Shown here: in pieces, positions 2,551-37,101 of the stretch
Layout of the letters: each line of letters starts with the position of its first letter
How positions within the stretch are numbered: position 1 is the stretch's first letter
IMG/VR virus record: IMGVR_UViG_3300030116_006156
Location: 1 to 40,867 of that record
Origin: a virus
DNA: 40,867 nucleotides
Direction: 5' to 3' (one strand)
Made by a program: the position numbers and the translations under genes
The notes under the pieces: model-generated
What the model saw: the letters and a program-made list of their open reading frames with translations, nothing else
Database searches by the model: none
Told to the model about the DNA's origin: nothing

Positions 2551-3243
2551 TTAGGATTGCTTTGCTCGTTTTTGAACTTCTTTTTTACCGCGATTATTTA
2601 TTTTTTCAAGACGGTCATAGCCAATGATTTTGGCAAGTTCTGGGGGGATTAAAACCTCTCCTCTAGAAACGAGCAGAGCTACATAATCTTCTTTACTTAT
2701 TTTATCGTTACGTGCTGATATGTCAACACCTTGCTGTTCCGCTTCCTCTAGCGCATTTATAATCATTTCTTTAACGTCGGAGGAACCCATGAATTCTACA
2801 GCGGGAGCATTTAGTACAAATGTTCCTGAAGGAACATCCACCGGAACATCATCAGCTACAGTTGCTTCTTTAGAAACGTTTTCTGGTTCTGTTCCAATAA
2901 ACCCCGGCTGATTAATTCGTGGTGCTGTAGACTGGGGGCTTGCAAAACCTTCAGTGCCACCCATTTTCATCGGTTTTTTTACGGGTGATGCCAATTTTGT
3001 TATGCGTGAAAGTAAATCTATTGTCGCTTCACCTAACGGGGCTGATTGTTGTGGTTGCTGAGTCATGGTCTGCATTTGAGTAGCCACAGGGGTAGGAGCA
3101 GTGTCTTGCTGTTTTACAAACATAGCATCACTTTTAGCCTGTTGTATTTTTTTACGAGCCTTAGTAAATTCTGCCGCAAATCTGTAGTTACCCTCAGAAA
3201 GTAACGCTTTTTCTATAGATGTGATTACTTCAAGATTTTGCAT
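2551..3243 (-). CDS. conserved head-operon protein, function unknown
   Basis: This 230-aa protein follows the portal region and overlaps the end of the small overprinted gene by 14 bases. The N-terminal 45 residues form a charged helix, about 45-75 is Gln/Pro/Thr-rich linker, and about 130-215 is the compact part, with the texts VPSGTFVLNAPAVEF and SRGEVLIPPELAKIIGYD. The C-terminal tail is basic (KKEVQKRAKQS). I recognise the compact part as a type common in marine podovirus head operons, but I know no proven function. There is no cysteine. A head-assembly or minor virion role fits the place. Confidence 0.6.
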   Translation of the reverse strand: MQNLEVITSIEKALLSEGNYRFAAEFTKARKKIQQAKSDAMFVKQQDTAPTPVATQMQTMTQQPQQSAPLGEATIDLLSRITKLASPVKKPMKMGGTEGFASPQSTAPRINQPGFIGTEPENVSKEATVADDVPVDVPSGTFVLNAPAVEFMGSSDVKEMIINALEEAEQQGVDISARNDKISKEDYVALLVSRGEVLIPPELAKIIGYDRLEKINNRGKKEVQKRAKQS

Positions 3244-3463
3244 TTGTTTTTACCACTTTTTCAAAATCACTCTTGAGGTTCATTAACGTTTCCAGTAAAA
3301 CCATCTTCCCCTGCATTTGGAACATTTCCCGTTCCGATTGTGCCGTTACCAACCCCCGAAGCGTCAACTGGTGGAGGTCCGTCAGATAGTTCGTTAGGCC
3401 CTCCCATGCCTGTGGGTTGTTGACCAGCGGCCCCACTTTCTGGGCCAACTCCTTGTTGAGCAC
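3230..3463 (-). CDS. small protein overprinted on the portal gene tail
   Basis: A 77-aa reading frame begins at GTG (3463) with AGAGGA eight bases upstream. It runs in another frame through the last 197 bases of the portal gene and ends 14 bases inside the next gene. The product is not low-complexity junk. It has an amphipathic helical pattern (LTNYLTDLHQLTLRGLVTAQ, then SEREMFQMQGKMVLLETLMN), like the short helical proteins found next to portal genes in many podoviruses. The portal frame in the same bases is Gly/Pro/Asn-rich disordered tail, as expected if this frame carries the constraint. Function unknown. Confidence 0.7.
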   Translation of the reverse strand: MLNKELAQKVGPLVNNPQAWEGLTNYLTDLHQLTLRGLVTAQSEREMFQMQGKMVLLETLMNLKSDFEKVVKTNAKS

Positions 3464-5366
3464 TTTGAATTCCTCTTAAAATTTCTGCGTAAATCTGTGC
3501 CTCGTCAAGATCATTAACAAGCAAATCTGGATCAATATCCTGTGAGATAGCTATCTCTTTAACGAGGTTAGGTAGTTTAATAAATGGGGCTAGTAATGGA
3601 TTACCAACTGTTTGTAACAATGCTGTAAGTCGCTGTGAACGAACTTCCTTTTGCATTACGGCGGATGTGCCACGAGGTTTAATTTCCAAGTCTCCAACTA
3701 TTTCTGGAGAGTTTTCGTCGTATTGCATATTCCATTGGAAATACGCTTCCCCTAGAGGCTTAAGTAAATAATCATCAATGTTTTTAATTACGGTTTTTAA
3801 GGACAAAGAACCTGACCCTAAAAGCATAGATAGCCCTGAGGCTGTACGTCCGGTTCCTGTTACGCCTGTCTGTCCGTGAAGCACTGAGGGTATTCCGGTT
3901 TCTTCATCGGCTAACTGGCGGCTTATCTGGTACATTTGGATGTTTTCTGGTGCGGTGTTTGGAAACTTCAGTCCATTAATCGCTGTCCCAGTTACACCGG
4001 ATTGCCGTCTGAATATTTTACCCGGAAAGATATCAAAGTTTTGACCGGGAACAAGGCTAGCCTCGTCAACATCAAAAACAAGATTCCCTGCTAACGCTAA
4101 ATTGTCTATTGCCATACGCACATGCCCATTCATGAGCATCTGTGCGTCTTCCATGTTTTCTGCAACGCCAACACCCCATATTTGATAGGGATTGATTTCA
4201 TAAGGGAATGCTTGAAAAGGGATTCGCGCTGGAGTAAAAGGATTCAAAACGCATCGTAAAATAATACTACCACAAACCCACGCGTTAATTTGAACCTGAT
4301 CTAATTCATCAATATCATCAGAAATACTCATCCCGACTTCACGGGCAAATTTGGCGTCTAAAACACCCCAGTATTCTAAAACTTCAAAACGATTTTCTTG
4401 ATAGTAAGGTTCTGTCTCGTCCTCTCGGATAGTGTCTTCATAATACTTATCCTCGTAGTTAGGTCCTTTTGCTATACAAGTTTCAATTGCCTCCCTATCA
4501 AAAAACGGAAGTGACATTAAAGACCGTAGCTGTTGACGATTCATACGATGACGCTGTATAACGTATTCACAGTCGTTGATATTTACAGCAGAAGGATCAG
4601 GGTGAAAATCCCAAAGTGATACATGCTCAATTTTAGGAACCAATTTTTCCATAGGGTTGTAAGTTCGACCCTGATCACCGCTGTCCCAACGGTGAATTTG
4701 TTTGTAAAAATTGAATGGTCCTTTTATAACCCCTGTGCCTAGTAAAGCAGATTCAAATATCGCGTAACGTAGTACGTTAACAGCGTCAGTATCTAATAAC
4801 TGATCATGAATCTGTTTTTCTAGTAAACGTGCCGCTTCTTTAGCCGGTTCAACTTGAGGTTCTCCGACATTAGATGGTCCCTCTGTAAGATTAAGGCCGT
4901 CATACTTTGAACCTAAATTAGATAGCTGAGTGGCACCCGGTGGCAATTCCATGCCATCCCCGGGAAAACCAAAAGGGCTTTGCATTGGTAAAGCTTGATC
5001 AAGGGGCGTGGTAACGTGAGCAAATTCAGCAATACCTTCTGGAACAGGACTTGATTCAACAACAATTGGAAACTTTTTATTTGCAAAAAGTATATCAATT
5101 ATCTGTCCGTAGGCGGCTAGAACTTTAGTTTTTGTTATTTTAATAAATACTTTAGACCGCTCACTTTCACGATACTGTGTTGTTGAGTCGTAATAGCCTT
5201 TGTAGTTTTTGTACGCTTGTAGCCACCGCTCTTCATGACTGCGGCGACCATTTTCAGAATCTTCAAACTTATTCTGAATATACCCGGCTAAACCGGGCAT
5301 TTGCTGTTCAGCGTCAATAACTTCAACCTGACCATCGTCAGGCTGTTCCATAAACCCTTGGGCCAT
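3267..5366 (-). CDS. portal (head-tail connector) protein
   Basis: This 699-aa protein would form the dodecameric portal vertex through which DNA enters and leaves. Position between terminase and scaffold, size, and the long alpha/beta core support this. Residues about 470-560 hold the text GVTGTGRTASGLSMLLGSGS followed by a long helix (TVIKNIDDYLLKPLGEAYF), a pattern I associate with podovirus portals, where the long helix lines the channel. About 130-190 is an insertion rich in Pro/Gly. The last 55 residues are Gly/Pro/Asn-rich and share DNA with the small gene at 3230-3463. ATG at 5366 has a weak ribosome site; a second ATG five codons later follows AAGGG. Confidence 0.85.
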   Translation of the reverse strand: MAQGFMEQPDDGQVEVIDAEQQMPGLAGYIQNKFEDSENGRRSHEERWLQAYKNYKGYYDSTTQYRESERSKVFIKITKTKVLAAYGQIIDILFANKKFPIVVESSPVPEGIAEFAHVTTPLDQALPMQSPFGFPGDGMELPPGATQLSNLGSKYDGLNLTEGPSNVGEPQVEPAKEAARLLEKQIHDQLLDTDAVNVLRYAIFESALLGTGVIKGPFNFYKQIHRWDSGDQGRTYNPMEKLVPKIEHVSLWDFHPDPSAVNINDCEYVIQRHRMNRQQLRSLMSLPFFDREAIETCIAKGPNYEDKYYEDTIREDETEPYYQENRFEVLEYWGVLDAKFAREVGMSISDDIDELDQVQINAWVCGSIILRCVLNPFTPARIPFQAFPYEINPYQIWGVGVAENMEDAQMLMNGHVRMAIDNLALAGNLVFDVDEASLVPGQNFDIFPGKIFRRQSGVTGTAINGLKFPNTAPENIQMYQISRQLADEETGIPSVLHGQTGVTGTGRTASGLSMLLGSGSLSLKTVIKNIDDYLLKPLGEAYFQWNMQYDENSPEIVGDLEIKPRGTSAVMQKEVRSQRLTALLQTVGNPLLAPFIKLPNLVKEIAISQDIDPDLLVNDLDEAQIYAEILRGIQSAQQGVGPESGAAGQQPTGMGGPNELSDGPPPVDASGVGNGTIGTGNVPNAGEDGFTGNVNEPQE

Positions 5367-5368: not shown

Positions 5369-5590
5369 TTATTTACCAGATTCGTTATATAAAGAGGTAT
5401 CGTCTGCCATTGAAAACAGTGACGGATCAACAGTTGTTTTTGTTTGTACCTTTGGTGCATCTTCTGTTAAAACATCAGTTTTTGCTTGCGTATCAAACTC
5501 TAGTCCTTCACGGTAGAGATTTGATTCTCCCACATTAGCGTCAACTGTTTGCTTATCAGCATTCATGATTTGTGCTTCACTATAATTCAT
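5369..5590 (-). CDS. small acidic protein between recombinase-like gene and portal
   Basis: A 73-aa acidic protein starts at ATG 5590 after AGGAG and stops three bases before the portal start, so it is coupled to it. It has no cysteine, no membrane segment and no motif I recognise; the Asp, Thr and Ser content suggests a mostly disordered chain. Its place in the packaging operon suggests a minor structural or assembly role, but nothing in the sequence proves one. Confidence 0.6.
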   Translation of the reverse strand: MNYSEAQIMNADKQTVDANVGESNLYREGLEFDTQAKTDVLTEDAPKVQTKTTVDPSLFSMADDTSLYNESGK

Positions 5591-5607
5591 GGTATTCTCC
5601 TAAGTTA

Positions 5608-7515
5608 TTAATAGCCTCTTGTTCTGGCTCCAAATTCACCAAAACTCTGTAGTAGTTCATCTTGATCCATGTCGTAAGATCGTTCTAGTAGCTCTGTTCC
5701 TTCTTCTGCTGTTGCTTTAGCACCCATTTCTGCAAGCGGAATAACCGCGCCCGGAGGCGTTAATTCTGCCGCAAATTTTGCTGTGCGTAGTCCCGTTGAA
5801 ACTTCAGGAGATGTGCCTAAAATTCCCTCACCTTTTTTTATATCTGCTTGAATTTCTTCTGCGAGAAAAACAGCCCCAACTGTAGGTACTATTGGTCCTA
5901 AAGCTTTTGTTAAGTTTATGCCAAGTTTTTTTAAACCGTCTTTAAACTTAGCTTGATCCTCCTCAGAAAGGGGAGTAACAGAGGGAGTTTTTGATTTAGC
6001 TTCAGCACGGGTTTCAGCGAGTTTTTGACGCTCTGCTTGAAGTTGTTCTGCTTTTGCTATATTTTCTTCTTCTTGAGCTAAAGCTTTCTTTGTTATATCC
6101 TGTGCCGCTTTCTTATTTTCAGCAGTTACTAGTTCTCTTCTTGACTCTAATGACGCTAGCTCTTCCGTTGTCATTTGACGAGGTTCAACAACAGTTTTTT
6201 CAGATAATTGTTCGCCCCTACGAACAACCTTAATCGGACTAGCATCTTTATCTGTAAAGCCGGGGATATCAAGACCCATAGCGGTTGCTGTCTCATTTAG
6301 AGTGCTCGCGCCAATTGCCTCACCAATCATACTTTCAAAAGAAAGTTGAACAGCCGCCAACGGGTTATCTGTGCGTACAATAGTTGAAAGATAGTGTTTG
6401 TTACCTACTTTTCCAATTGCCGCGTTAAGTTGAGCATCTGTGTGACCGAGCATTTTTTCTGCTTCTTCAGGATACCCAAGCTCACTCACAATCATAGTAT
6501 AGATTATTTTACGGAAATCTTTAGCTTCGTCAAAAGGACGACCCAAGATTCCTTCAAACTGTTCCATTCGTGGAGTAATATTTTCCCGAATGGCGTTTGT
6601 CATTTTTTGTGTGGTTACGTCAGGAAATAGGTTGTCTGATCCTAATGACTGCGCTTCAACTGCTTGTAAAGCTAAAGTTTGATATAAAATACTGTTTTTA
6701 TCAAGAATTAAATCAGTAGCTGTTTTATTACCCGTTGTGCCCACAGGAAATATAATTGCTCCTTTTTCAATATCAAAGTACCCCGGGGGACGATCTACTT
6801 CAATCGTGCTTAAGTCGTAAGCACCTAAACGTAAATCTGCGACTTCTCCGGGACGATACGGGGCAAGAGAGCTTGCAATTAATGCATTTGCAGTGCTGGT
6901 ATCTTCAACGGTGCTTAAACCTGCTACAATTTCAGGAAAAGCCTGTTTTGCAGGAGGAATTCCCTCAAACGATTTACTTCCTCGTGATTGTTTTGCAGAA
7001 GCTAAACCAGCGGCCTTTTCTTTTGGATTTTGATACAAAAAAGCCGCGTCATCTGTTACGAGAGTATGTGTGCCTTTAAGGGAATTAAATACGCCCGACC
7101 AACCGGGATCAATTGACGCCGTATGTTTAGCAATTTTCTCCATTGCCTCACGGCTGTTAGAAATGTCTTTAAATGGTGTGTCAAGAGTAAACCCGGCTTT
7201 TTGAGTACTATTCAATACAACATTTGCACGGTTAGAGATTGTTCCGGGGGAAGGAGACTCCCCCGGCATTATTTTATTTTCTGGCGGAAACATTTCAGCA
7301 AACACTTTACCAATTGGTGTTGCTTGCGTAGCTGGTTGTAACTTAATACCCCGAGCATAAAAATCTAAAACAACAGACTCACGAACAGTTAACGTGCCAT
7401 TCAGTAGTTTATCTTCAAGAAAAGAACGCACTGGCAAATCATTGTAACTTGCGTAACCTAACTTCTTTACAAGCTCTGTTAGAACCTCTTGCTGTGTTTT
7501 TCTTTTTTGTGCCAT
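5608..7515 (-). CDS. tyrosine-recombinase-like protein with long C-terminal extension
   Basis: This 635-aa protein has a catalytic-domain pattern of a tyrosine recombinase at about 195-380: Arg I in APYRPGEVADLRL (R221), a beta-hairpin lysine in TTGNKTATD (K264), the box KDFR (R335, with Lys at the usual first His), LGH (H358) and a candidate nucleophile in KHYLST (Y375). About 100-180 resembles the helical core-binding domain. Residues 440-540 are charged coiled coil, and about 545-570 is hydrophobic (GPIVPTVGAVFLAEE). The gene lies inside the packaging operon, directly after TerL (stop and start adjoin). It could be a working integrase, a resolvase, or a virion protein derived from one. The pattern is seen; function is inferred. 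Confidence 0.7.
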   Translation of the reverse strand: MAQKRKTQQEVLTELVKKLGYASYNDLPVRSFLEDKLLNGTLTVRESVVLDFYARGIKLQPATQATPIGKVFAEMFPPENKIMPGESPSPGTISNRANVVLNSTQKAGFTLDTPFKDISNSREAMEKIAKHTASIDPGWSGVFNSLKGTHTLVTDDAAFLYQNPKEKAAGLASAKQSRGSKSFEGIPPAKQAFPEIVAGLSTVEDTSTANALIASSLAPYRPGEVADLRLGAYDLSTIEVDRPPGYFDIEKGAIIFPVGTTGNKTATDLILDKNSILYQTLALQAVEAQSLGSDNLFPDVTTQKMTNAIRENITPRMEQFEGILGRPFDEAKDFRKIIYTMIVSELGYPEEAEKMLGHTDAQLNAAIGKVGNKHYLSTIVRTDNPLAAVQLSFESMIGEAIGASTLNETATAMGLDIPGFTDKDASPIKVVRRGEQLSEKTVVEPRQMTTEELASLESRRELVTAENKKAAQDITKKALAQEEENIAKAEQLQAERQKLAETRAEAKSKTPSVTPLSEEDQAKFKDGLKKLGINLTKALGPIVPTVGAVFLAEEIQADIKKGEGILGTSPEVSTGLRTAKFAAELTPPGAVIPLAEMGAKATAEEGTELLERSYDMDQDELLQSFGEFGARTRGY

Positions 7516-9210
7516 TTAGTACCCAAAGGTTGCATCTTGTGGTTGAAAAGTGCTATTTTTTATGTCTTGGAGAGATTTATGAATACTGACATATCCGGTG
7601 GTTCTAGTCATAAGCATGTAACGCAACGCATCGTATGCATGGTCTTCAGCTTTTGTATCTACGTCTTCACTGTTTGTTTTAGAAAGAGGTATACCCGCAA
7701 GTTGTTTAATTATGTTTGTGCACGTATAAAAAAACTTTACTGTAGGTTCTCCCGTAAACTCATTGTCGCCAAGCCGACGATGTATTTCCATCTTGCCAGC
7801 AATACGACTTCTATCAGACGGAACCCACCGACATCCGCAACGAATCATCGTTTCAGCAATGGAAGGACCATATCCTGTTTTGTTCCAACATGAAGAATCT
7901 AAAACAGTGTAATGAGGTTTAGGATCATATTGTTCTAATTCTAGTATTTTAGCGGCTAGTTGCTCTGCTGTAAAGTGTTTTACATAAAGCTCTCTATATA
8001 TCCATATGTTGTTGTCCCAATCGATTGCACCCCAGAGTACGCACGAAGGGCTTGCGTAGCCGTAGTCTGCCGCTCTGATACGCGGCCAGTTGGCGGGCAA
8101 CTCAAATGGATCAACCACATGTTTGATTTTGCTAAATTCAGGAAAGGCACATCCTTCTGCCACATCCCAATCGCCATCAAGTAATCTTTTTCTTTCGACT
8201 TCTGGGAGAGAGAGGAGCATTGCCTCATACTGTCCATCCGCCATGAGATATGGGTTGTCGGTAAGTCGTGCGGGTACGAATTTTCTCCAGTATAGGGGTT
8301 GACCGTGCTTGCTGTGACCCTCTGGGTATATAAGTGGCTTTTCAGATTCAATATCGCTGGGGATGAAGCGAATGCCGGGTTCACCTTGGTCGATGTACAT
8401 TTTCTTGACCCACCAGCCGCCAACGCCTCCGGGGTTAGCTGTGCAACGCATGGAGAGATTTGCGGAGAGTTCAGGGTCCGTGCTCCGTAAACGTGACCGT
8501 AGATATTCCCATACGTAGGGGGTGGGATACTGTGTAATTTCATCGATGGCTATCCAATTGAAGGCTTGTCCCTGATATCGGGTAACGTCCTTGTCTTTGT
8601 CAAGATAACTAAACCAGATAGTGGCCCCCGACGGGAAATGCCATGTGGATTTAGACTCTCTAAAGGAGGCACCGGGAAACGCCTTGGGATAAAGTTGTTT
8701 AGATTTGGAGATGAGTTCAGTCAATTCATCCAGAGTGCGACGGAGTAATAAACCACGATGATTAGGATTATGGCAATAACGGAGAGGATCTGCCAAGAGA
8801 GCGAAACTCTTTCCTCCACCAGCCGCACCGCCGTATAGTACATCTTGTTCAGGTGCTGACAGAAAGTCCTCTTGTGGTCCATCATTCGGTTTGAATACAA
8901 CTTCAGATTCTCCCACAAGCTTTTTAACTGCGTCTGGTAAGGCATTTAAATCTCCTACATCAATTACTCGTGAATTTTTACCTTGTAGTGCTGTTTCTAC
9001 TTTTTTAGCGGCACTCTCTCTTTTTCTAGCTCTTTGTATTTGTTTATCAGCCGCCGCCCGCTTCTTTTCGGCTTCTTTCTTAGAACGGCGTATACTCGCC
9101 TGTGTGGCTCTCCGAGCTTTTTCGGCTGTGGAGAGGTTATAACGTGCTTTAGGCGCGTCAGGGTCCTTTCTAGGGCGTCCACGGGGGCGTTTTAAGGCTT
9201 CACTGCTCAT
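7516..9210 (-). CDS. terL: terminase large subunit with AT-hook-like N-terminus
   Basis: This 564-aa packaging motor combines an ATPase and a nuclease. Walker A is GGAAGGGKS (127-135), Walker B FNWIAIDE (217-224, D223 and catalytic E224), and a coupling text TANPGG lies at 258-262. The RNase H-like nuclease shows D382 (AADYGY), D438 (VLDSS) and D527 (DHAYDALRY; D523 also possible). Residues 8-15 read RPRGRPRK, an AT-hook core, followed by about 60 very basic helical residues; usual TerL proteins begin near the ATPase. It overlaps terS by 11 bases and adjoins the recombinase-like gene. Confidence 0.95.
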   Translation of the reverse strand: MSSEALKRPRGRPRKDPDAPKARYNLSTAEKARRATQASIRRSKKEAEKKRAAADKQIQRARKRESAAKKVETALQGKNSRVIDVGDLNALPDAVKKLVGESEVVFKPNDGPQEDFLSAPEQDVLYGGAAGGGKSFALLADPLRYCHNPNHRGLLLRRTLDELTELISKSKQLYPKAFPGASFRESKSTWHFPSGATIWFSYLDKDKDVTRYQGQAFNWIAIDEITQYPTPYVWEYLRSRLRSTDPELSANLSMRCTANPGGVGGWWVKKMYIDQGEPGIRFIPSDIESEKPLIYPEGHSKHGQPLYWRKFVPARLTDNPYLMADGQYEAMLLSLPEVERKRLLDGDWDVAEGCAFPEFSKIKHVVDPFELPANWPRIRAADYGYASPSCVLWGAIDWDNNIWIYRELYVKHFTAEQLAAKILELEQYDPKPHYTVLDSSCWNKTGYGPSIAETMIRCGCRWVPSDRSRIAGKMEIHRRLGDNEFTGEPTVKFFYTCTNIIKQLAGIPLSKTNSEDVDTKAEDHAYDALRYMLMTRTTGYVSIHKSLQDIKNSTFQPQDATFGY

Positions 9211-9604
9211 CTACAACGATTTCTTGTTTGGAGGGGAGTAGAACGACTCCGTGAACAGCTTGTATGTTTACATTATGAGTTTCTTGCTTACCTAAACCTA
9301 CACGATTTAACAAAGATTCGGCGGCTTGAAGGCGAATATTATCGCCACGTTCTATTTCTGGAGCATCTATAGTAGAAATTAGCTTATTTACTGCTTTTAC
9401 AGCACCTCCTGCAAGCACACTGCGGGATCTTTCTATGATTTCAGTAGCTAAACTCTCTTTTAAATGCCCTATGGAGCCTGAAGAGTACCCGGCTACCTCA
9501 CAAGCACGGCTAAAATTACCCCCATTGTCAAAAAGAGCATCTAAAAAAGTTTTTTGTTGTTCATTTAGCTCTCTTTTACGAGTTTGCTGGGGTAATAAAT
9601 TCAT
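9200..9604 (-). CDS. terS: terminase small subunit
   Basis: This 134-aa protein should recognise phage DNA and load it on TerL. The start is ATG 9604 with TTGGAG seven bases before it. The frame is open further up to a TTG at 9724, but that TTG is the -35 box of the promoter, so the longer form is not transcribed. The N-terminal region reads LNEQQKTFLDALFDNGGNFSRACEVAGYS (residues 15-43 in short pieces), the typical HTH of small terminases (FLDALFDNGG, then RACEVAGYS). The middle (NIRLQAAESLLNRVGL) fits the oligomerisation helices. First gene of the late operon. Confidence 0.85.
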   Translation of the reverse strand: MNLLPQQTRKRELNEQQKTFLDALFDNGGNFSRACEVAGYSSGSIGHLKESLATEIIERSRSVLAGGAVKAVNKLISTIDAPEIERGDNIRLQAAESLLNRVGLGKQETHNVNIQAVHGVVLLPSKQEIVVDEQ

Positions 9605-9694
9605 ATTTTCTCCAAAAAAATGTACAAAACGCAGTGGTGTAAAGACTTTATTACTGCAATGTCGATTCTCTTTACCGCTGGATTGCACAAATAC

Positions 9695-9724
9695 ATTATG
9701 GTATCTAACTTTTAAGTTTGTCAA
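9695..9724 (-). promoter_or_regulatory. sigma70-like promoter of the packaging and head operon
   Basis: On the minus strand TTGACA (9724-9719, perfect -35) is followed after 18 bases by CATAAT (9700-9695, 5 of 6). The start point would be near 9688, about 85 bases before the terS ATG. This is the best-matching promoter seen in the window and fits the start of the late leftward operon. No phage-type promoter or RNA polymerase gene is seen. Confidence 0.65.
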
Positions 9725-14816: not shown

Positions 14817-14890
14817 TTTAAGATTGAGGGGGGTTACCCCGGCGGGACTCGGGGCGAAGCATACATTGTTTGGTGTATCTAATCAAGCTC

Positions 14891-14950
14891 TGACATTTTC
14901 TGTTGACATTTTTAATAATTGTTCTGACAATCTTCTCTGACATTTTGTCA
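14891..14950. repeat. TGACATTTT direct repeats and TGACATTTTGTCA palindrome
   Basis: TGACATTTT occurs at 14891-14899, 14904-14912 and 14938-14946, with a related TGACAAT at 14925-14931. The last copy is part of the palindrome TGACATTTTGTCA (14938-14950). The repeats bracket the -35 and -10 of the rightward promoter, an arrangement typical of multiple operator sites for one regulator. Confidence 0.5.
14903..14931 (+). promoter_or_regulatory. sigma70-like promoter of the replication operon
   Basis: TTGACA (14903-14908, perfect), 17 bases, GACAAT (14926-14931, 4 of 6). Transcription would start near 14938, inside the last operator-like palindrome and about 27 bases before the primase start. This is the natural promoter for the whole plus-strand operon to 25.2 kb. 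Confidence 0.55.
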
Positions 14951-26699: not shown

Positions 26700-26881
26700 A
26701 TTTTACGATACATTTAAACCGTGATGGAAACTTAGAGTTTGATCTTAATTGTGTAGACACCCCTAGTATGGAATCTGTGCTTCGTAAGCTGGGCGACCCT
26801 GTTTACAGTCATAGAGTAGGAAAGGTAGTAAGAAAGTACTTTAGAGTTTTATCAGAAAAAATGAAGGATGAAAGAACCTAA
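26675..26881 (+). CDS. small hypothetical protein
   Basis: A 68-aa frame starts at ATG 26675 inside the end of the nuclease gene and ends as TAATG with the next start. It is basic in the C-terminal half (HRVGKVVRKYFRVLSEKMK). A weak ribosome site makes the start uncertain. No family recognised. Confidence 0.5.
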   Translation: MENRARLLNFTIHLNRDGNLEFDLNCVDTPSMESVLRKLGDPVYSHRVGKVVRKYFRVLSEKMKDERT

Positions 26882-27552
26882 TGTCCTACCTCATATCAAA
26901 CATACCGTACTTTAAATGTTGGGTACGAAAAGAATTCACAGCTAATCATCAGGATTACCACGGTGAATATCTTCATGCACTTGCAATCGCTGTAAATACT
27001 ATAACTGATAGGTCACTTACTTTTCAGGTTGTGTTCACGGGTTGTGAGATTGATCTTGAAGAGGGTCTTGAAAATATACACGGAGGTGCAATGTGGGCAA
27101 GGATGCCCATTCAAGCTCTGGTTTTTGATATGGAACTGGAGGAGTGGCCTGAAAGGATGGAGGATCACTTAGCACAGCCGTGGGACTGTGAGTCACGTAA
27201 TCATGAAGTTATCGTGATGGACCGGGTTAGCTCAAGTCCTTGGATAGCAAAAATAGATGGTGAGTTTTATGAAGCAAGATATTTGTTTACTGTAGATTAC
27301 ACAGAGAACGATATTGCAGATTCACCAGATCAACACAAACAGTCTCATGTCTTGTATCTTACAGATGGGCAGTGGGAAGGAAATGTAGTTGCCCTGCCAA
27401 ACAACCGGGTTAGGGCTACGAGTCCAGCCCTATGGAGAACAGGAGAAGGTGCTCCTGACTTTGCTCCCAGCCAGTACGTTCACTCTGCGGAAGGGCATAG
27501 TACGTACACTGATCCTAGCATCACGTTCAATAACCTGTACGCAGAGGAATAA
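26881..27552 (+). CDS. conserved marine phage protein, function unknown
   Basis: This 223-aa protein is the last gene of the plus-strand operon. Texts such as NIPYFKCWVRKEFT, LTFQVVFTGCEID and HGGAMWARMPIQALVF are of a kind I associate with conserved proteins of marine podoviruses, but I know no tested role. It appears to be alpha/beta without membrane segment or catalytic signature. The stop reads into the poly-A side of the shared terminator. Confidence 0.6.
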   Translation: MSYLISNIPYFKCWVRKEFTANHQDYHGEYLHALAIAVNTITDRSLTFQVVFTGCEIDLEEGLENIHGGAMWARMPIQALVFDMELEEWPERMEDHLAQPWDCESRNHEVIVMDRVSSSPWIAKIDGEFYEARYLFTVDYTENDIADSPDQHKQSHVLYLTDGQWEGNVVALPNNRVRATSPALWRTGEGAPDFAPSQYVHSAEGHSTYTDPSITFNNLYAEE

Positions 27553-28205: not shown

Positions 28206-28607
28206 CTATCTTCCCCGGCCCCCACGAGCCATACCCTTGGCTTTTTTACCACCCATCATGGCTTTGCCTTTGGTTTTCTTACCACCCATCATGGCTTTGC
28301 CCTTGGTTTTCTTACCACCCATCATGGCTTTGCCCTTGGTTTTTTTGCCGCCATACATAGATTTACCTTTACCATCAATTGCAAATGCAGGAACCATTTT
28401 ACCTGTTTTAGGGTCTTTAGCCATCGGCATACCGCCCTTCTTCATCATCATGGTTTTTTTAGGAGTCATGGAGGCACCGCCCCCGTACATCATAGCTTTA
28501 CCCTTGGTGGTCTTACCTTTGGTAGTCTTACCACCCATTGCCTTAGGCTTGTACTTTTTCAAAGGGCGTTTAGCTTTTTTCTTAGCTTCGGTTGTTTTGA
28601 GGGGCAT
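28206..28607 (-). CDS. Lys/Gly/Met-rich basic protein with tandem repeats
   Basis: This 133-aa protein has about thirty lysines and almost no acidic residues. The C-terminal third repeats the unit GGKKTKGKAMM about four times, encoded by 33-base DNA repeats. An N-terminal copy-like part (KTTKGKTTKGKAMMYGG) lies at about 26-42. The middle MAKDPKTGKMVPAF is a text often seen in marine phage structural regions. It has a strong ribosome site (AGGAG). It could bind DNA or polyanions in the virion; this is inferred from charge. Confidence 0.65.
   Translation of the reverse strand: MPLKTTEAKKKAKRPLKKYKPKAMGGKTTKGKTTKGKAMMYGGGASMTPKKTMMMKKGGMPMAKDPKTGKMVPAFAIDGKGKSMYGGKKTKGKAMMGGKKTKGKAMMGGKKTKGKAMMGGKKAKGMARGGRGR
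28235..28345. repeat. 33-bp tandem repeats in the basic protein gene
   Basis: ACCACCCATCATGGCTTTGC starts at 28248, 28281 and 28314, exactly 33 bases apart, with a degenerate copy on the right side of the array. The period keeps the reading frame (11 residues), so copy number can change without frameshift. Confidence 0.85.
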
Positions 28608-28632
28608 TTTAGTTCTCCTAATATTTTAAAAA

Positions 28633-28968
28633 TTATGGCGTTTCTTGGTCGCCGGGGGGAAGATCAACTTCTCCAGCGTTTATGAGGATGTTACGCATCA
28701 TCATACCGTCGGGAGTGTTTTTTTCGGCTCCCATTTTGTAACGTCGTAAGTCCTCAGGGTTATCCTTGGATCTTTCATACAAGCGTTCCAATTCTTCTCT
28801 TCTTTGCATCTGCATTTCTTCTGGAGTTGCACCTTGCATAGAGCCTACGGTTATTGGCCCTTTTGGTGGTGCCTTTTCACCTTTTTTAGGAGAACCAGAC
28901 ATGCGTTTTACTCGGGTAACACCCCCTAGCATCATGGGCTTACGGGATGGGTTTGTGTAGGGTTTCAT
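28633..28968 (-). CDS. small Met/Pro/Arg-rich virion-region protein
   Basis: A 111-aa protein starts at ATG 28968 (AGGAG upstream). The N-terminal half is basic and disordered (SRKPMMLGGVTRVKRMSGS), the middle a charged helix (EEMQMQRREELERLYERSKD), and the end acidic. No cysteine and no known domain. It follows the 1694-aa protein and may belong with it. Confidence 0.55.
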   Translation of the reverse strand: MKPYTNPSRKPMMLGGVTRVKRMSGSPKKGEKAPPKGPITVGSMQGATPEEMQMQRREELERLYERSKDNPEDLRRYKMGAEKNTPDGMMMRNILINAGEVDLPPGDQETP

Positions 28969-28985
28969 TTCAACTCCTGTAGGTA

Positions 28986-31900
28986 CTATACTCCGGGGGA
29001 TGGATTGTCTAATATATCACTCATTTGCGTTGCAAGAGCGTTGATTTTTTCTTCCCTTGCCTCGTCTGTAAACGCCCCTTGCTCTTCTAATTCTTGAATT
29101 TCTTCGGGACTTGCGGTATCTCGTATTCCTCTTAAGATAGCAGATACCATCGCTTCAGCAAATGCTCTCTGGTCAGCACCCTGTGGAACCTCTCCAGTTT
29201 TTATCATTCGTGCAATCTGATCTGCTAAAATGGGATCACGCATCGATTCAACAAATAGCTTTTGTCCTTTGACACGAGAGTGTTGAATTAAAAACTCGGA
29301 TAAGACATAGCGGGTTGAAACAACGCCACGAGATATGGAATAAATGCGACTTAGCCAAGACTCTATAGAAAGTGATCGTGCTTCCCCGACTAAGTTCACA
29401 GAATTAAAAGATGTGTTTTTACGTACGAGGTAATCGACGATTGCTTTCATACTAGTATAGTGAGAATCTTCACCTAAAGGCAAGTCCTTTTTGGTGGGGT
29501 CTCTCAATATTGTTTTTAAGTTTTCAGCAACTATTCTGTCTGTCTCAGTAGCACCCGGACTGTCATCACCAAGTAATTTTTGTAATTTATTTAAATCAAC
29601 CTCTCGTGCTGTTCTTTGACTTATTCCATCTGTTGTGCTTTCAAAAATTTGACCGGGTGCAAGAACAGTCGTCTCATCGTCGATGTATTTACCAAGAAGG
29701 TATCTAAGGTGATTGTCAAATATGTCTCCTACAAATTCTTCTGAAAGCTCCTTATTTTTTATTTTTGCACGAGTTTTTATAGTGTTGATGTAGGATTGCC
29801 TTAAACTGGCTATGGTTTCTAAAGCGTTTTCTTCCCGTATTAAGTTGTACAAGCTCTCAGGGTCGACGTCTTTATTAATATTTGCTCCTGCTTTTGCAAA
29901 ATCCCTTGCGGCTATGGCAGATAGGTTTTCAAAACTAAATTCTGTATTTACTTCTTGTTTAAGTTTTTCTGCACCTTCTTTTAAAACTTTTCTGACTTGA
30001 TCGCCAGCTTCACTAGCCTTTTTGTTTACATCACTTAGAGCATTAAAACTGTGCAGTAAGCCTATTTCATTTAAATTTATTAAAGACTCAACTTCTTTTA
30101 TAGCTGAAGTCTGGGGATCAACGTCGTATATCTTTATGTTACCTATTCTTTCAATAAACTCTACTAGGTCTTTTGTTTTTGCTTCTACTTCTTCTCCAAG
30201 AGCATCCATCTTTGTTTTTCCGGTATCGCCAACATCAATGCTTTCCAATCTTTGGTTTATGTAATCTCTAAGCTTCGGAGGAAAATCGGCTAAGTCAGCA
30301 CCCTCTAGAAAATCATCAAATCCTTTGAGCAAATCCACTTGTTCATTTAGGTATGAAATAAACAGATTTCTAACAGTATTTAAACTTTCAGTTTGCTCTT
30401 TTATTTCTTTAGCAGTACCAGAAGGAGCGGTGAATCTTGAAATATCTAATCTAGTAGAGCTATCTATAACTTCCTTATCGTCTAACGCACCCCTCGGTAT
30501 AATCCTTCTTCCTCCAAGAGCTAATGCAAGAGGAGCCTCTATTAGTTCGTAGAATTGCGTTGGGTCTACGTCCCCGTCTTTACGCAGGTTTATGAACGTT
30601 GCAAAAACCCTATCAAAAAGTTTTGAGGGGGTGTTTTCCGGGGTGTATTTTGCAGAGTCTAACGCTGAACCTACTTTTCGTCCTTGGCTGTCATATAGAA
30701 CTTTGCTAGCAATAGGACTGTGTAGTGGAGTTAACACTTCATCTATGTAAGCGTTGTTGATTCCAGTTAAAGCCTTATTAGCCTCTTTTCCTAAAGGTGT
30801 CCCCTGCCTAGTGCCATCTGCACCAATATTTCTATAGTCTGTTACAAACCCGTTTTCTCCCTGAGACTCCGAAATAAAGTTATCACGGACGTTCCTAGTG
30901 GATTGAGCACGCAAAAACCCGCGTGAACCCCTTGTTTTTGCGTAAGCTTGCTCTCCTAAATGCGATATTATTCTGCGATACTCTGCAAAGTTTATAGGAA
31001 GGGACATTCTGTCAGCAATTTGTTTTATAACTTCAGGAGTAACCTCACTAGCTGGGATTAATTCAGCTATCGCTTCCTGTCCTTCGGGTGTTCTTAAGTA
31101 TGATCTAACTTTAGACCACTGAACAAAGGATTTTTTATTTCTAGCTTTTGAAGCTTTTACAATAGCTGAGAAAGCTACTTCTCCTAGCACATCATTTAAA
31201 TACTCTAGCTCTCGGGTAGCCGCACCACCAAACACTGTCTGTAAAGTGTTAAGGCTTTTTGTAGGTATTGTTTTTCCCTCAGGATCAATGTCTATTTTTA
31301 CAGGTGAGTTAGTTTCGGGAATGTCACCAGCAAGAACTGAGTTTGATGTATTTTCGGGTACACCTTGGTCTATAAATTCATCTGCTAAGTTTGAAGCATC
31401 CATCATTGCCCCTGAATACATGGTATCCAATTCCTCATAGGATTCTTCAAACTTAGTCATTTTAAGTTGATGGAGAGTGATAATATGCTGACTAGCCAGT
31501 GTTTGGGAGCTTATTGTAGGGTCCCGATTTATCCTAGATTTCACTGCTAAAGCTTTAATAACATTTAGACGATCTTGCAATACTTTCTGTTGTGCATCTA
31601 AAATTTCGTCCTTATCAAGGCCCCTAGCTGTATTTATAAGTCGTCGTTGAGTATCTATCTGATCTGTAATTTGCCTAAAGTCTGGTACAACAAACTCACC
31701 GTTTTCAAGAATAACTCTACCCATTATGTCTTGAAATAAGTCTGCTTCCGCTGAGTCTATGCCCGCTTCAAGCTCATTTAATTTAAAGTTTAGTTCTGAA
31801 TCTAAAGCTTTGTAAATAGCGTTTAAGTCTACTCTAAACTGTTCGTCTGCACCACTTAAGTTTGCTCTATTTAACTTAGTTATAGCTAAAGATAAGTTAT

Positions 31901-34070
31901 CTAAACTCTGACGTTCGTTGATCAGGCTATTACCTAGTGCCATAGCTATATCATTAAATGAAGAAATATCACCAAGTGATATCTGCTCTCGTATAGTTTG
32001 TTGATGAATTCTTAAAAGAGGCTGGTTTATCAGTTCTGCTACAGTTAAAGTAACATCATCATCTGTAAGCAACCTTTCCCCGGTTGTCGGATCAATAATT
32101 TGGCGGAGCTTATCTTGGTTAGCAACAGCAGTGTCTATAGCATCAACCGCCTGATCATATTGTTCTGGTTCCAACGTTCTAAGAACAGATACCCAATCTT
32201 GAGCGGCTTTTGGAAGTACTTTTTCACTATCAACGAGGGCTGTTTTTCCCAACTTTAAAACTGCTACGGGCACGAGTAGAGGTGCTCCGATAATAGAGAG
32301 ACCACCTTTTTGCATCGTTGCGGGTGCTAACGCCGCCGCTACTGCACCTCCTGCTTCAGACAATTGAAGAGTAAGAGACGTAGCTGGGTCATTAGTTCCT
32401 ATGCCATCCTGAACTATTTGTGCAAACGTGCCAATACCTATTGCTTGCGCGGGAAATTCTCTAGCTAATGATTGCAAATATGGAGGCAAATTTATTTCTG
32501 CCCGTATACTGTCAAGCTCTTTTGTTGAACGCGCTATTTTTTGTTCTAGTGCAGTTCGCCGTGTTACGGTTTCTGCCGTGTCTTTTAACTTGTCTAATTC
32601 CTCTTGTGAATCCCTAATTATTTTATTTAGCTTTTTTTGCTTACTAGACAAGGCAACTTCTACAGCACTTTTTCCTTTTAACGCTCCTCTTCCCAATCGC
32701 CCGGTTTGCACTGAAACCTGTCCCATTATATCTATGTCTCTGGCACGACTGACTCGGGCAAATCGGTCTAAGGCTTTTCCTAGTTTGGAAGGTAAAAAAC
32801 TTAAATTTGCAAACCCTCCGACCTGTCCAAAGTATCGGTTCATGACGTCTTTAGCAGGGATTCCTAATTTAGCCGCTTCCTCTAATGTGTTGACCTTATA
32901 CGTCTTTTGTAAAAACTTTTTAAACTTTCGCATTCCATTGTAAGCTAAAGCAATACGTCCTCCTCCTACGAGTGCCAAGTCACTCACAACGGAGGGAGCT
33001 ACACCTGCTGTTCTATCAATTAATGTGGGACTTGTTGCTATTAGAGCAGTGGCTAATTCAAGAGGTATGTTTGCGCTTTGTGAGAGAGTCTCGGCGGCAG
33101 AATCAAATTTTAAATAATCTATTCTTGGATCACCGTTTTCATCATAAACTCTATAGTCTCCATTTGGACTTGTAAAAAAATCGTAGATACCAGCCGCTAA
33201 ACTAAAGCCGTTAGTAATTGCACCTTCCAAAAGCTCAGGGCCAAAAGTTATAGCTTCTTTTGTACGTAAAACCGCTTTTTGTGCATCTAAAACTCCGGTT
33301 TCTTCTGCGATTCCTATTTCTCTTAAAAGATACGGGTTAATTCCTACATCCTTAAACTCATTCTCCATTAACTCTATCATTTTACCTGCTTGTGCTTTTG
33401 GACCTAGAAACACATCAGGGAATCTTCTGTTTATAAAGTCTGCAACACCCTCCGCCTTAGGCCCAGCAACAAATTTAGTCATCGCCTCTGGAATAGCCGT
33501 TGGTCCAGCTTCACGAATATCCCCCCGTCGTTCAGCCTCTAGAGCTTGTTTTCTCGTTCTTAAGTACTCCAATACAGGTAGTGTAGTCTCTACACGATTA
33601 CGAAAGTCTTCAGGGCCAATAAAGTCGCCCCTAATTAGGCGGGTAGCACCCTTTGTGACAAGTTCTTTAGCAATATCCTCCACTGTATTAAATACAGGTT
33701 CGTTAGTCGTGGGATTAACTAAATACACAGCAGACCGATTACCAAAAAAGGCTCCAGTATCAGCCGGCTCTTCAGTCGTATACGCCGTTGCGTTTAATAA
33801 ACTGTCCTTAATTTTTTTCTCTCTTGCCGCGTAATCTTCAGGGCTTTCTCCTACTATAGGAAACGGTTTATAGTAGTTATTGTAATAATAATCCGGGCTT
33901 GCATCTTCGGTTAAAGGGCTTTTAAAACTTTTAGGACGAGAAAAATCCATTTCCCCACGGTCTAAGGATTCTGGTTGTTTAAGAACACCTACAGAAGCGG
34001 GTTGGTCGGGGGATAAACGACTTAAGTCTAAACTTAGGATTTTTTCAATTTCACTTTGGGATATAGACAT
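28986..34070 (-). CDS. giant internal virion (ejection) protein candidate
   Basis: This 1694-aa protein is the largest in the window and contains no cysteine. It is mostly alpha-helical and charged, with coiled-coil stretches (about 490-540 and 1380-1400) and a hydrophobic part near 575-625 (GGAVAAALAPATM; IIGAPLLVPVAVLKLG). No lysozyme or protease motif was found. Size, helical content and place next to other internal proteins fit the T7 gp16 type of ejected channel or motor protein. Start ATG 34070 with AAAGGAAAG upstream. Identity is inferred from context, not from a recognised domain. Confidence 0.6.
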   Translation of the reverse strand: MSISQSEIEKILSLDLSRLSPDQPASVGVLKQPESLDRGEMDFSRPKSFKSPLTEDASPDYYYNNYYKPFPIVGESPEDYAAREKKIKDSLLNATAYTTEEPADTGAFFGNRSAVYLVNPTTNEPVFNTVEDIAKELVTKGATRLIRGDFIGPEDFRNRVETTLPVLEYLRTRKQALEAERRGDIREAGPTAIPEAMTKFVAGPKAEGVADFINRRFPDVFLGPKAQAGKMIELMENEFKDVGINPYLLREIGIAEETGVLDAQKAVLRTKEAITFGPELLEGAITNGFSLAAGIYDFFTSPNGDYRVYDENGDPRIDYLKFDSAAETLSQSANIPLELATALIATSPTLIDRTAGVAPSVVSDLALVGGGRIALAYNGMRKFKKFLQKTYKVNTLEEAAKLGIPAKDVMNRYFGQVGGFANLSFLPSKLGKALDRFARVSRARDIDIMGQVSVQTGRLGRGALKGKSAVEVALSSKQKKLNKIIRDSQEELDKLKDTAETVTRRTALEQKIARSTKELDSIRAEINLPPYLQSLAREFPAQAIGIGTFAQIVQDGIGTNDPATSLTLQLSEAGGAVAAALAPATMQKGGLSIIGAPLLVPVAVLKLGKTALVDSEKVLPKAAQDWVSVLRTLEPEQYDQAVDAIDTAVANQDKLRQIIDPTTGERLLTDDDVTLTVAELINQPLLRIHQQTIREQISLGDISSFNDIAMALGNSLINERQSLDNLSLAITKLNRANLSGADEQFRVDLNAIYKALDSELNFKLNELEAGIDSAEADLFQDIMGRVILENGEFVVPDFRQITDQIDTQRRLINTARGLDKDEILDAQQKVLQDRLNVIKALAVKSRINRDPTISSQTLASQHIITLHQLKMTKFEESYEELDTMYSGAMMDASNLADEFIDQGVPENTSNSVLAGDIPETNSPVKIDIDPEGKTIPTKSLNTLQTVFGGAATRELEYLNDVLGEVAFSAIVKASKARNKKSFVQWSKVRSYLRTPEGQEAIAELIPASEVTPEVIKQIADRMSLPINFAEYRRIISHLGEQAYAKTRGSRGFLRAQSTRNVRDNFISESQGENGFVTDYRNIGADGTRQGTPLGKEANKALTGINNAYIDEVLTPLHSPIASKVLYDSQGRKVGSALDSAKYTPENTPSKLFDRVFATFINLRKDGDVDPTQFYELIEAPLALALGGRRIIPRGALDDKEVIDSSTRLDISRFTAPSGTAKEIKEQTESLNTVRNLFISYLNEQVDLLKGFDDFLEGADLADFPPKLRDYINQRLESIDVGDTGKTKMDALGEEVEAKTKDLVEFIERIGNIKIYDVDPQTSAIKEVESLINLNEIGLLHSFNALSDVNKKASEAGDQVRKVLKEGAEKLKQEVNTEFSFENLSAIAARDFAKAGANINKDVDPESLYNLIREENALETIASLRQSYINTIKTRAKIKNKELSEEFVGDIFDNHLRYLLGKYIDDETTVLAPGQIFESTTDGISQRTAREVDLNKLQKLLGDDSPGATETDRIVAENLKTILRDPTKKDLPLGEDSHYTSMKAIVDYLVRKNTSFNSVNLVGEARSLSIESWLSRIYSISRGVVSTRYVLSEFLIQHSRVKGQKLFVESMRDPILADQIARMIKTGEVPQGADQRAFAEAMVSAILRGIRDTASPEEIQELEEQGAFTDEAREEKINALATQMSDILDNPSPGV

Positions 34071-34087
34071 GGCTATTTATCTTTCCT

Positions 34088-36568
34088 TTAAAAAGGTGAC
34101 CGTTTTTCTGTTTGAAGCGCATTCACGATATCACTAAAACGCACAAGACCTTGTTGTAAATTTACAAAAGCTTCTCCGTTCCTTATTACCAACCGTTCTT
34201 GGGCTAGCATCGCTTGTTTAGCTTTGTCATTTCCCTCTTCTTCACTGTCTTTTATACTTTGTACGACTTGTGAAATGGTCATGTTATCCTCGTCTGTAAG
34301 AGACTTTATGCCACCAAATTCAACCACGGGTAGTTGGTCAGATGAGCTTATTTGTTGGAGAGCTTCCTCAGCCTTTTTTATAGCCTCTTCCTCAGCCTTT
34401 TTTCTAGCCTCTTCCTCAGCCTTTTTAAGAATTTGCGCGTCACTTACAGCTAAAGGAACTGGAACCTTTGAATCCTTACTTGAAATCTGCTGTTGAATCG
34501 CCCGTTCTTGTTCCGTTGTAAGAGTTCCAATATTCTCTTTTCCTTCAATACTACCGACAAATGCATCAACGTTTGAAATTGGAGCAAATATTTGATTAAC
34601 AAGCATAGCCGCCGCAGTCTTTTCGTAGTTATTTCCACGATAAGTTTCATTTATTGTTTTTCTAAATTCAGCTTCAGCTTTAAGCTGTCTTAACACAGCT
34701 AATGAAGACTCAGGATCATTAAACATATTTGTTAAACTACCTATACGCCCCTGCGCTAACCTAACGTCGTAGTCGGAAATATTACGGAAATCCCCGCCCT
34801 GTAGCATTGAAGCAACATTGTATAGTAGGCTGGTTTGAAGTGCTTGTACCAGTTTCTCAACGTTAACTTCGTCATTTGCAAGTTCTGCTTTAGTGCTTTC
34901 AATCAATTCTATGTTTGCTCTAAGATTGTCATTCATCTCCCTACCAGAAAAGGTACTCGTAAAGCTATTTAAAATTTCAAGTGATTGAGCCTTAAAGCCC
35001 TCAAATGTTGTTTTGAGTTGACCAGAAAGTCCACCCTTTGCATCGTATTCTTCAACCAATGTTATAAGACTATCAGCATCTTTAATTATCGCGTCAGTAG
35101 CCGTAATCATTTGACCTATACTTCCCGGCTTTACATTTAAAGCTTTGGTGATAAGTCCAGATGGATCTTGTCCAGCGGTTCGGCCCGCAAACCCTTCAAC
35201 TGCATCCTCTCCAAAAAATGCTTGTGTCATACTTATCAAAAGTTTTGGGTTAGTTTTAAATGGAGATAGAGCCTTTCTAATATCATCTCCTAGTTGAGTA
35301 CCCAGTAACGCGTTGGGATTAAAAGTAGGCATGCCCTGCATATCATAAGAAACAGGTGCATTTCCCTCTGTTTTTATGAAAGCTTGGGTTTGTTTCATTG
35401 TATTAAAGAATTTTCTGGCTTGGTTTTCGCTTAAGCCGTTTAGTATTTTATACAACCTTTCTTGAGAAAGATCAGAGTTAGCCGCTCCTTCACTCATAAC
35501 TTTTACAAAGTCTGCGTTAAAATCCCCTTCGTCATTTTTCGCCCAACTTAACCCATTAAACGGATCGGTACTTATCGTAACACCGCCTTCAGCATCTACT
35601 TCAACAGGATTATTGGTGGGTATATTTAATTCTCTCATTAGTTCAGACTGTCCCGCAGTGCTTAAACTTGGAAGAACAATTTCTTTAAGAAACTTTTGGT
35701 TTTTGTATAGGTTGGGAAACAAGTCTATGGATAAGAAAGATGTTACAGGTCTAAAATACGTACCTTTTAAATCCCCTTTTCCTTCCTTCTTTGTTTTTTC
35801 TATTTCAGCTAGTAGGTTAGTACCTAAAAAGTCGATGACTTTATCTAAATCTGTAGAATTCAAATTCTCCGCTTTTAAACCGTCTTCTATATACCTTGAC
35901 GCTAGACCAATATTTTCTAGTTCAGTACTATTCTTAGGAATATAGAGTACATTGCGGGAGTTAAAATCATAGTTGCCCAAGTTATCACGAGGAATTTCTG
36001 TTCCCTTATTAGCAACTAAAAAACCTGTGCCTCCTTTTTCCACCGCTTGCCCCGTGGTTTTTTCTACCACATCTAGTGCGGTAATTACTTTCGGGGGCTT
36101 ACCCAAGAGTTCTACTTTTTTATACGTTGCTGGAGTAAAAGCATTTGTTGCAGGATCAATTTGCGACGGTTGTAATGTGTAAATAACTCCTAGGGGGTTC
36201 ATATCTTTATTCATAGTATACCCCGGACGAGGAAGTCCTGTAACAGGATCTACATCTCTATCCCCAATACCTAACTGTCGGTTTAAGCCTCTTACTGTTG
36301 CATTAGCCCGAGCATCGCTGTCTATTTTTGCAAAATTAAGTCTTTTCAGCAAAGCCTCTTTTTCTTGGTTTTTACGCTCTAGTTCATCCGCCGCCACACC
36401 TGCCTGATACAGTCTTTCTTCTTTTAGTTTATCTCTTTCAGCTACTAAATTTCTGTAGTATATGGCATCCTCACGAGCTATACGCCGATCTTCAGCGGCT
36501 AAAGCTTGACCCTGACGTAAACCGCCAGTTAACGCGCTAAGTAAACCCATTAATAATGGTGCCGCCAT
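34088..36568 (-). CDS. large internal virion protein candidate
   Basis: This 826-aa protein has no cysteine. It opens with a hydrophobic Ala/Leu/Gly stretch (AAPLLMGLLSALTGGLRQG), then a charged helical part (RRIAREDAIYYRNLVAERDK). A KAEEEARK-type repeat with 8-residue period lies near 725-750. The middle is alpha/beta without recognisable domain. It is placed between the 177-aa and 1694-aa genes and starts on the base where the former gene ends. Likely virion component; function unknown. Confidence 0.6.
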   Translation of the reverse strand: MAAPLLMGLLSALTGGLRQGQALAAEDRRIAREDAIYYRNLVAERDKLKEERLYQAGVAADELERKNQEKEALLKRLNFAKIDSDARANATVRGLNRQLGIGDRDVDPVTGLPRPGYTMNKDMNPLGVIYTLQPSQIDPATNAFTPATYKKVELLGKPPKVITALDVVEKTTGQAVEKGGTGFLVANKGTEIPRDNLGNYDFNSRNVLYIPKNSTELENIGLASRYIEDGLKAENLNSTDLDKVIDFLGTNLLAEIEKTKKEGKGDLKGTYFRPVTSFLSIDLFPNLYKNQKFLKEIVLPSLSTAGQSELMRELNIPTNNPVEVDAEGGVTISTDPFNGLSWAKNDEGDFNADFVKVMSEGAANSDLSQERLYKILNGLSENQARKFFNTMKQTQAFIKTEGNAPVSYDMQGMPTFNPNALLGTQLGDDIRKALSPFKTNPKLLISMTQAFFGEDAVEGFAGRTAGQDPSGLITKALNVKPGSIGQMITATDAIIKDADSLITLVEEYDAKGGLSGQLKTTFEGFKAQSLEILNSFTSTFSGREMNDNLRANIELIESTKAELANDEVNVEKLVQALQTSLLYNVASMLQGGDFRNISDYDVRLAQGRIGSLTNMFNDPESSLAVLRQLKAEAEFRKTINETYRGNNYEKTAAAMLVNQIFAPISNVDAFVGSIEGKENIGTLTTEQERAIQQQISSKDSKVPVPLAVSDAQILKKAEEEARKKAEEEAIKKAEEALQQISSSDQLPVVEFGGIKSLTDEDNMTISQVVQSIKDSEEEGNDKAKQAMLAQERLVIRNGEAFVNLQQGLVRFSDIVNALQTEKRSPF
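34366..34429. repeat. 24-bp tandem repeat, KKAEEEA(I/R) units
   Basis: Two full 24-base units (34366-34389 and 34390-34413) and a partial third (to 34429) begin CCTCAGCCTTTTT and encode an eight-residue charged helical unit in the 826-aa protein. The period is in frame and would extend a single rigid helix. Confidence 0.75.
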
Positions 36569-37101
36569 TACTGCTCTTCCTCTTCTATCATAGTTTCTGG
36601 CTCAACCGCTAACATGCCCTGATTTTCTTGTCGGTTAGCCATGTACTGTTGGTATTCTTGTTCTTTATACTGGGCGTATATTTGAGGATTACGTTTTTCC
36701 ATGAGTTGCAACAGTGTCTCATCGCTCATACCAGCAGGTTGAGGCGGGCCACCGTCCACAGTTCCTTTGAATATACGCACTGGAATATTAAAAGTATCCG
36801 CTACGCCAATAAAATAAAAAACTAAGGAGGGACGAATTAACTCTGCTACATCAGGATTAAAGTACCCCTGAGAAAACCCAGTAATAGCTAGAGAGTTAAC
36901 GATTTCCTCAATGGAAATACCTGCGATCATCATCTTTATGTAACGATCTTTGGTAGTTGGCACCTCCACTCTATCTAAAATAAACTCCGTAGCTTCTAAC
37001 GGAGTGTTAAACATCGGTGGTCTATCCCAGTCCCACTTTCCGGGTTCTTGAGTTAAAGACCACCCCGGAGGTGCGGCTCTAAAGTTATCAAAGTACTGCA
37101 T
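36568..37101 (-). CDS. conserved virion-region protein
   Basis: This 177-aa protein begins with a text of the type PPGWSLTQEPGKWDWDRPP, which I associate with a structural protein found in many marine phages. A helical middle follows (DRYIKMMIAGISIEEIVNSL), and the end is acidic and Gln/Glu-rich. It has no cysteine. It shares one base with both neighbouring genes. Function not known; structural role likely from place. Confidence 0.55.
   Translation of the reverse strand: MQYFDNFRAAPPGWSLTQEPGKWDWDRPPMFNTPLEATEFILDRVEVPTTKDRYIKMMIAGISIEEIVNSLAITGFSQGYFNPDVAELIRPSLVFYFIGVADTFNIPVRIFKGTVDGGPPQPAGMSDETLLQLMEKRNPQIYAQYKEQEYQQYMANRQENQGMLAVEPETMIEEEEQ

Follow-up and report, generated by a model that had tools for sequence, protein, structure and literature searches.

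The locus analyzed here raises the question of why uncultured marine phages carry a gene for a tyrosine-recombinase-like protein between terL and the portal gene, and what this protein does there. We refer to the P0001-type genes in the terL-portal interval of these phages as slot genes. P0001 itself is encoded in the window, i.e., the entire stretch of 40,867 nucleotides analyzed (IMG/VR record IMGVR_UViG_3300030116_006156), which is a partial genome ~10.5 kb short of its circular relative G001 (53 kb). An earlier note on this DNA had described a 635-aa ORF between terL and portal; this ORF exists and lies on the minus strand (Table 1), and its start codon (ATG) directly abuts the terL stop codon. 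The same note had placed the gene next to portal. The two genes are in the same block; however, a 76-aa ORF intervenes and they are, therefore, not immediate neighbors.

Table 1. Positions in the window of the slot gene, its parts, and the surrounding genes
Feature	Coordinates	Strand	Remark
Terminase small subunit-like	9200..9724	minus	phrog_51, 1e-4
terL, terminase large subunit; upstream edge of exchanged cassette	7516..9210	minus	
Slot gene P0001, predicted tyrosine recombinase with C-terminal tail, 635 aa	5608..7515	minus	
Catalytic domain, ~residues 185-401 (R221, K264, K332, R335, H358, Y375)	6313..6963	minus	
Codon of predicted nucleophile Y375	6391..6393	minus	Tyr in 101/101 relatives with a residue at this position
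Predicted long helix, coiled-coil-like, residues 450-507	5995..6168	minus	low-confidence model and composition
C-terminal tail module, ~residues 560-635	5611..5838	minus	65-70% identical to L018/L022/L024
Conserved 76-aa ORF between slot gene and portal	5369..5599	minus	Pfam match: none
Portal protein, SU10-type	3267..5366	minus	
g4, protein after portal, 230 aa, two GF[IVLAM] motifs	2551..3243	minus	

Elsewhere in the window, a tail/ejection-like module at 28400-39500 encodes proteins of 1694, 826, and 477 aa without family matches; at the DNA level, this region cannot be aligned with G001, while the early genes are ~97% identical. Within the gene for the 826-aa protein, three tandem 24-bp repeats (34363-34434) encode a repeated KKAEEEA. 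A 133-aa ORF on the minus strand (28206-28607) contains 33-bp tandem repeats encoding the Lys/Met/Gly-rich GKAMMGGKKTK, and a ferredoxin-like auxiliary gene (26881-27552) adjoins genes for ribonucleotide reductase.

By itself, P0001 has no recombinase-family match in Pfam, PHROGs, NCBIfam, or phage records, and a profile built from four slot sequences gave no informative match in the PDB. The earlier reader's call of a tyrosine-recombinase-like protein, made from the sequence only, was thus a good one, and the test of homology had to go through relatives. Among 67 slot proteins, 22 match PF00589 (best E value 2.8e-9), up to 16 match PHROG families annotated as integrase (best 2.1e-17), and one weakly matches the archaeal phage integrase family PF16795 (0.011). 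A profile of 76 slot proteins matches XerA (5hxy; 1.5e-7) and an archaeal XerC-like protein (4a8e; 3.5e-7) in the PDB, followed by XerH, lambda Int, XerD, and IntI4. Only these deeper alignment-based searches reveal the homology. Consistently, the AlphaFold2 model of residues 1-432 (pLDDT 90.7, pTM 0.87) has a predicted helical core-binding domain and a catalytic domain, and its informative PDB matches are recombinases. These matches have probabilities of 0.9-1.0, yet TM scores of 0.3-0.4 and E values of ~0.01, arguing that the relation is remote; the viral structures matched are integrases, with E values from 2e-4.

The catalytic residues listed by the earlier note (R221, K264, R335, H358, and Y375) are present in P0001 exactly as described, with K332 at the position of the first His. 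In 102 non-redundant slot proteins, R335 is kept in 102/102, Y375 in 101/101, R221 in 101/102 (the single exception may be a misalignment), and K264 in 94/101. Position 358 is occupied by His in 72, Arg in 28, and Lys in 2 of the proteins, while position 332 is never His. Besides Met1, the two catalytic Arg residues and the Tyr are the only essentially invariant residues, and in a second alignment of 76 slot proteins, R221, R335, and Y375 are the sole invariant positions. This conservation stands out against a mean column identity of 12-13%. By homology, predicted fold, and conservation of the catalytic residues, P0001 is a tyrosine recombinase. The earlier call also withstood both checks that the note had named as able to refute it, namely, those of the predicted structure and of the R/H/Y residues in homologs.

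What the earlier reader missed was the main point, namely, that the slot gene is fixed in one phage clade and hypervariable within it. Close slot homologs were collected from IMG/VR, and a terL-based search gave 160 loci. All of the 100 complete terL-to-portal intervals contain exactly one large ORF, the slot gene, and at every locus without this ORF, the contig ends within the interval. The slot-bearing phages group as a single clade in the terL tree (support 99/96), corresponding to one change, although some long branches meet and the exact root is unsure. The nearest sisters in our sample are the pelagiphages HTVC103P and HTVC115P, which grow on the SAR11 strain HTCC7211 and whose interval holds three small ORFs, while in the HMO-2011-type sister group the slot gene is present in 0/77 complete loci and the terL-portal gap never exceeds 248 bp. 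None of the interval genes of phiM6, RHph_N3_19, Manatee Spring, and HTVC103P/HTVC115P is recombinase-like. In more distant relatives, the interval holds genes for an HNH-type endonuclease-like protein (L219:4403-5062), an SGNH hydrolase (L090:5222-6829), and an 849-aa oxidoreductase-like protein (L220:3935-6484); in the wider relatives, the interval is apparently a general cargo site.

Within the clade, 41% of the pairs with 98-100% identical terL have slot proteins without detectable similarity, and in these pairs the median identity is 95% for portal and 94% for the 76-aa protein. In the pair L074/L076, for instance, terL is 100% and portal 98.3% identical, and slot similarity is absent. 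Conversely, no pair with <80% terL identity has slot proteins that are at least 45% identical. Similarly, most early genes and the terminase block are 93-97% identical between G001 and the window, and the slot genes of the two have no nucleotide similarity; because the tail module and g4 have likewise diverged in G001, the slot is not the sole variable region. In most pairs examined, identity ends ~10-30 bases past the start codon of the slot gene and returns within the gene or at its end.

Exchange also occurs inside the gene, and head and tail are shuffled independently and in both directions. L168 and L180 have a common head (84%) and different tails, while L170 and L178 have a common tail (92%) and different heads. 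The idea that the tail alone is common to chimeras was rejected, as a wider test found exchange both ways. P0001 is itself a chimera: residues 1 to ~500 are ~70% identical to L002, and the proteins with tails similar to its own have heads unrelated to that of P0001. Tails are common to close backbones only, and heads can be similar at any backbone distance; this sharing of tails could partly be a by-product of the positions of homologous crossovers. Purifying selection prevails in the heads of close pairs, with dN/dS of ~0.04-0.4, two pairs of nearly identical genes being uninformative.

Slot proteins extend ~220-580 aa beyond the catalytic Tyr, in the order of a charged E/K/A-rich part, an Ala/Gly-rich and moderately hydrophobic stretch, and a charged end. 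The coiled and hydrophobic extension proposed for P0001 in the earlier note is, accordingly, real in that it comprises a predicted helix and an Ala/Gly-rich stretch; the helix derives from an AlphaFold2 model built on four sequences, with a pLDDT of 54.6. A GF[IVLAM] motif is present in 43/79 slot tails compared with 6.9 expected by shuffling, a descriptive figure because the motif was spotted by inspecting the tails. P0001 lacks an exact GF[IVLAM] in its tail and ends in FGEFGARTRGY. The motif is also enriched in g4, at 0.40 versus 0.086 per 110 aa in a handful of related genomes. Longer g4 proteins are found in relatives, with lengths of 811 aa in the closely related G001 and 640-1040 aa in others. 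In 4/7 relatives examined, the g4 ortholog carries a cell wall hydrolase domain (PF07486) at its C terminus, a type of domain typical of virion-associated lysins. A g4-type protein is, therefore, a probable virion lysin, and the features that the slot tails have in common with it would favor packaging of the slot protein.

Based on these observations, we suggest that the slot protein is an active recombinase, made late and associated with the virion, the DNA specificity of which is exchangeable, a reading to which we assign a probability of roughly 0.4. According to this model, the enzyme would be catalytically competent and expressed late together with packaging and head proteins. The head (~residues 1-435) would be the DNA-binding and DNA-cutting part, the specificity of which has diversified and is swapped among phages, while the tail, with its coil, Ala/Gly-rich stretch, and disordered end with the GF motif, would fit the protein to the particle of its own phage. 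The tail would load the enzyme into the virion next to the portal and the lysin adjoining it, and the enzyme would then enter the cell with the phage DNA and perform site-specific recombination without early expression. Catalytic activity, late expression (from the operon position), virion loading, injection, and target are all steps that we infer; virion loading is suggested by the position in the operon, the architecture of the tail, and a short motif. Late expression, as implied by the operon position, together with a backbone-matched tail suggests action during packaging or after carriage in the virion.

The borders of the exchanged block bear on where the target may lie. As the block runs from the start codon to a point inside the gene, its borders place the target most likely either in the slot gene itself or outside the phage, in host or competitor DNA. 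A target elsewhere in the phage genome that changes with the head is unlikely, unless the site is common to all. Searches for candidate sites gave the following results. Neither the window nor the complete G001 has a telomere-like palindrome with arms of at least 12 bp, and the window has no tRNA or Rfam feature. A tRNA 3'-end-like core is absent from the window, G001, and most relatives, the exceptions being a chance match in a coding ORF of G012, weak matches in G004 and G007, and a whole tRNA-Arg in G016. Nothing convincing came from a search for Xer/loxP-like inverted sites, and no region linked to head type was seen in the pairs L128/L131 and L168/L180. Genome scans that reach close relatives found no integrated relatives in SAR116 or SAR11, where the earlier note had proposed to look. 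At 14866-14945, the ~95 bp upstream of the primase gene are replaced in G001 by unrelated sequence, with a sharp junction and ~95% identical surroundings, and each version has its own direct-repeat pair (spacing 47 in the window and 36 in G001). We considered this site as a head-covarying DNA site and rejected it, as it resembles promoter/operator repeats more and we could not link it to slot type.

Alternatively, the slot protein could be the lysogeny integrase of the clade, placed in the late block, with its diversity reflecting changing host attachment sites. Its catalytic residues are intact, and it is the sole recombinase detected in the slot-bearing genomes tested, i.e., these genomes have no second PF00589 match, in a search of limited sensitivity as many slot genes escape that model. 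Moreover, the HMO-2011-type sisters encode a conventional tyrosine integrase, and tRNA-Met is the integration site of CRP-3 (PMC6918029; PMC9038755). An oddly placed ordinary integrase would give much of the same residue conservation. However, the operon position implies late expression, an exchanged block that begins at the start codon leaves no room for a co-travelling intergenic attP, and the tail found throughout the clade does not resemble ordinary integrases. The window, G001, and the other genomes gave no convincing tRNA 3'-end-like core, and scans of limited reach gave no integrated relatives. We rank the integrase second in probability. We consider it somewhat less probable that the protein acts like baculovirus VLF-1 at the portal, where it would process concatemers or genome ends and perhaps stay as a minor virion component. 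The gene sits between terL and portal, the tail tracks the backbone, and VLF-1 is a precedent for a tyrosine recombinase in genome packaging (PMC11654684); nevertheless, free swaps of the head among near-identical genomes would be hard to reconcile with an essential resolvase that acts on its own genome at a fixed site outside the gene, and the palindrome search in the window and G001 was negative.

It is also conceivable, although we regard it as improbable, that the slot protein is a weapon or shield against other DNA, such as host defense loci, satellites, or competing phages, with an arms race diversifying the heads. Hypervariability, a fixed active site, and free exchange fit such a role, the cassette borders make it unlikely that a phage site beyond the gene travels with it, and other relatives hold the unrelated cargo described above in the interval; however, we found neither a target nor a covarying immunity partner gene. 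This explanation overlaps with that of a virion-carried recombinase, which leaves the target open. By far the least probable is that the slot protein is an inert structural protein that has retained the fold alone. In favor of this idea, the gene has head genes around it, no member retains the first catalytic His, and 28/102 carry Arg in place of the second, but the nucleophilic Tyr and both Arg residues are the sole strictly kept residues at ~13% family identity. The suggestion in the earlier note of a virion protein that reused the fold is thus disfavored in this inert sense. Returning to a virion-associated recombinase, its fuller version is a polymorphic, virion-delivered system with interchangeable heads and backbone-specific docking tails that is injected and has its target in the slot gene or in host or competitor DNA; we regard this version as almost as probable. 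The fixed active site amid swapped sequence suggests an unrecognized and possibly virus-carried recombination weapon or integrase.

In comparison with known systems, the slot proteins have the core-binding and catalytic fold in common with Xer/lambda-Int proteins (PF00589; 5hxy, 4a8e, XerH 5jjv, lambda Int 1z19, and Tn1549 Int 6emy) and have R, K, R, H/R, and Y in the same order; they differ in never having the first His, in their long tail, and in being encoded by a hypervariable cassette in a late packaging operon. The first His of the HxxR box is often conserved in tyrosine recombinases and is not strictly defining; some telomere resolvases, type IB topoisomerases, and SSV-type integrases have Lys at this position. 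Telomere resolvases need a palindromic telomere site, of which, as described, neither the window nor G001 has one with arms of at least 12 bp. The conventional integrase of HMO-2011 and CRP-3, which belong to a related podovirus group, is also a tyrosine recombinase; however, in HMO-2011-type phages, the gene (~300 aa in HMO-2011) lies upstream of replication genes, and these phages lack the slot gene. Baculovirus VLF-1, another member of the superfamily, is linked to the packaging of the genome and the assembly of nucleocapsids (PMC11654684); unlike the slot protein, it belongs to insect viruses and is not a swapped cassette, and the likeness is at the superfamily level. Injected phage proteins such as the N4 virion RNA polymerase, T4 Alt, and the polyvalent proteins combine an enzyme part with regions thought to serve packaging, and their genes, like the slot gene, are placed among virion genes (PMC5512222).

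The main text of the survey of polyvalent proteins mentions neither integrase nor recombinase (PMC5512222), a 2024 structural survey states that, apart from baculo-like viruses, no role in packaging or virion formation has been attributed to tyrosine recombinases (PMC11654684), and a 2021 paper comparing phages with this packaging module reports no integrase gene outside one group (PMC8528129). In the literature searched, we found no recombinase fixed between terL and portal with an exchangeable head and a backbone-matched tail. While the catalytic fold is known, fixation in the terL-portal interval with a head/tail split is, therefore, new in this literature; such genes probably went unseen because they are too divergent for family searches. 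A phage clade with a terL-portal recombinase would challenge the statement of the 2024 survey, if the enzyme acts there. Moreover, the head/tail modularity gives a concrete prediction on where the target can lie and, with the fixed active site, makes the slot proteins a natural library of about a hundred recombinases with possibly differing DNA specificities.
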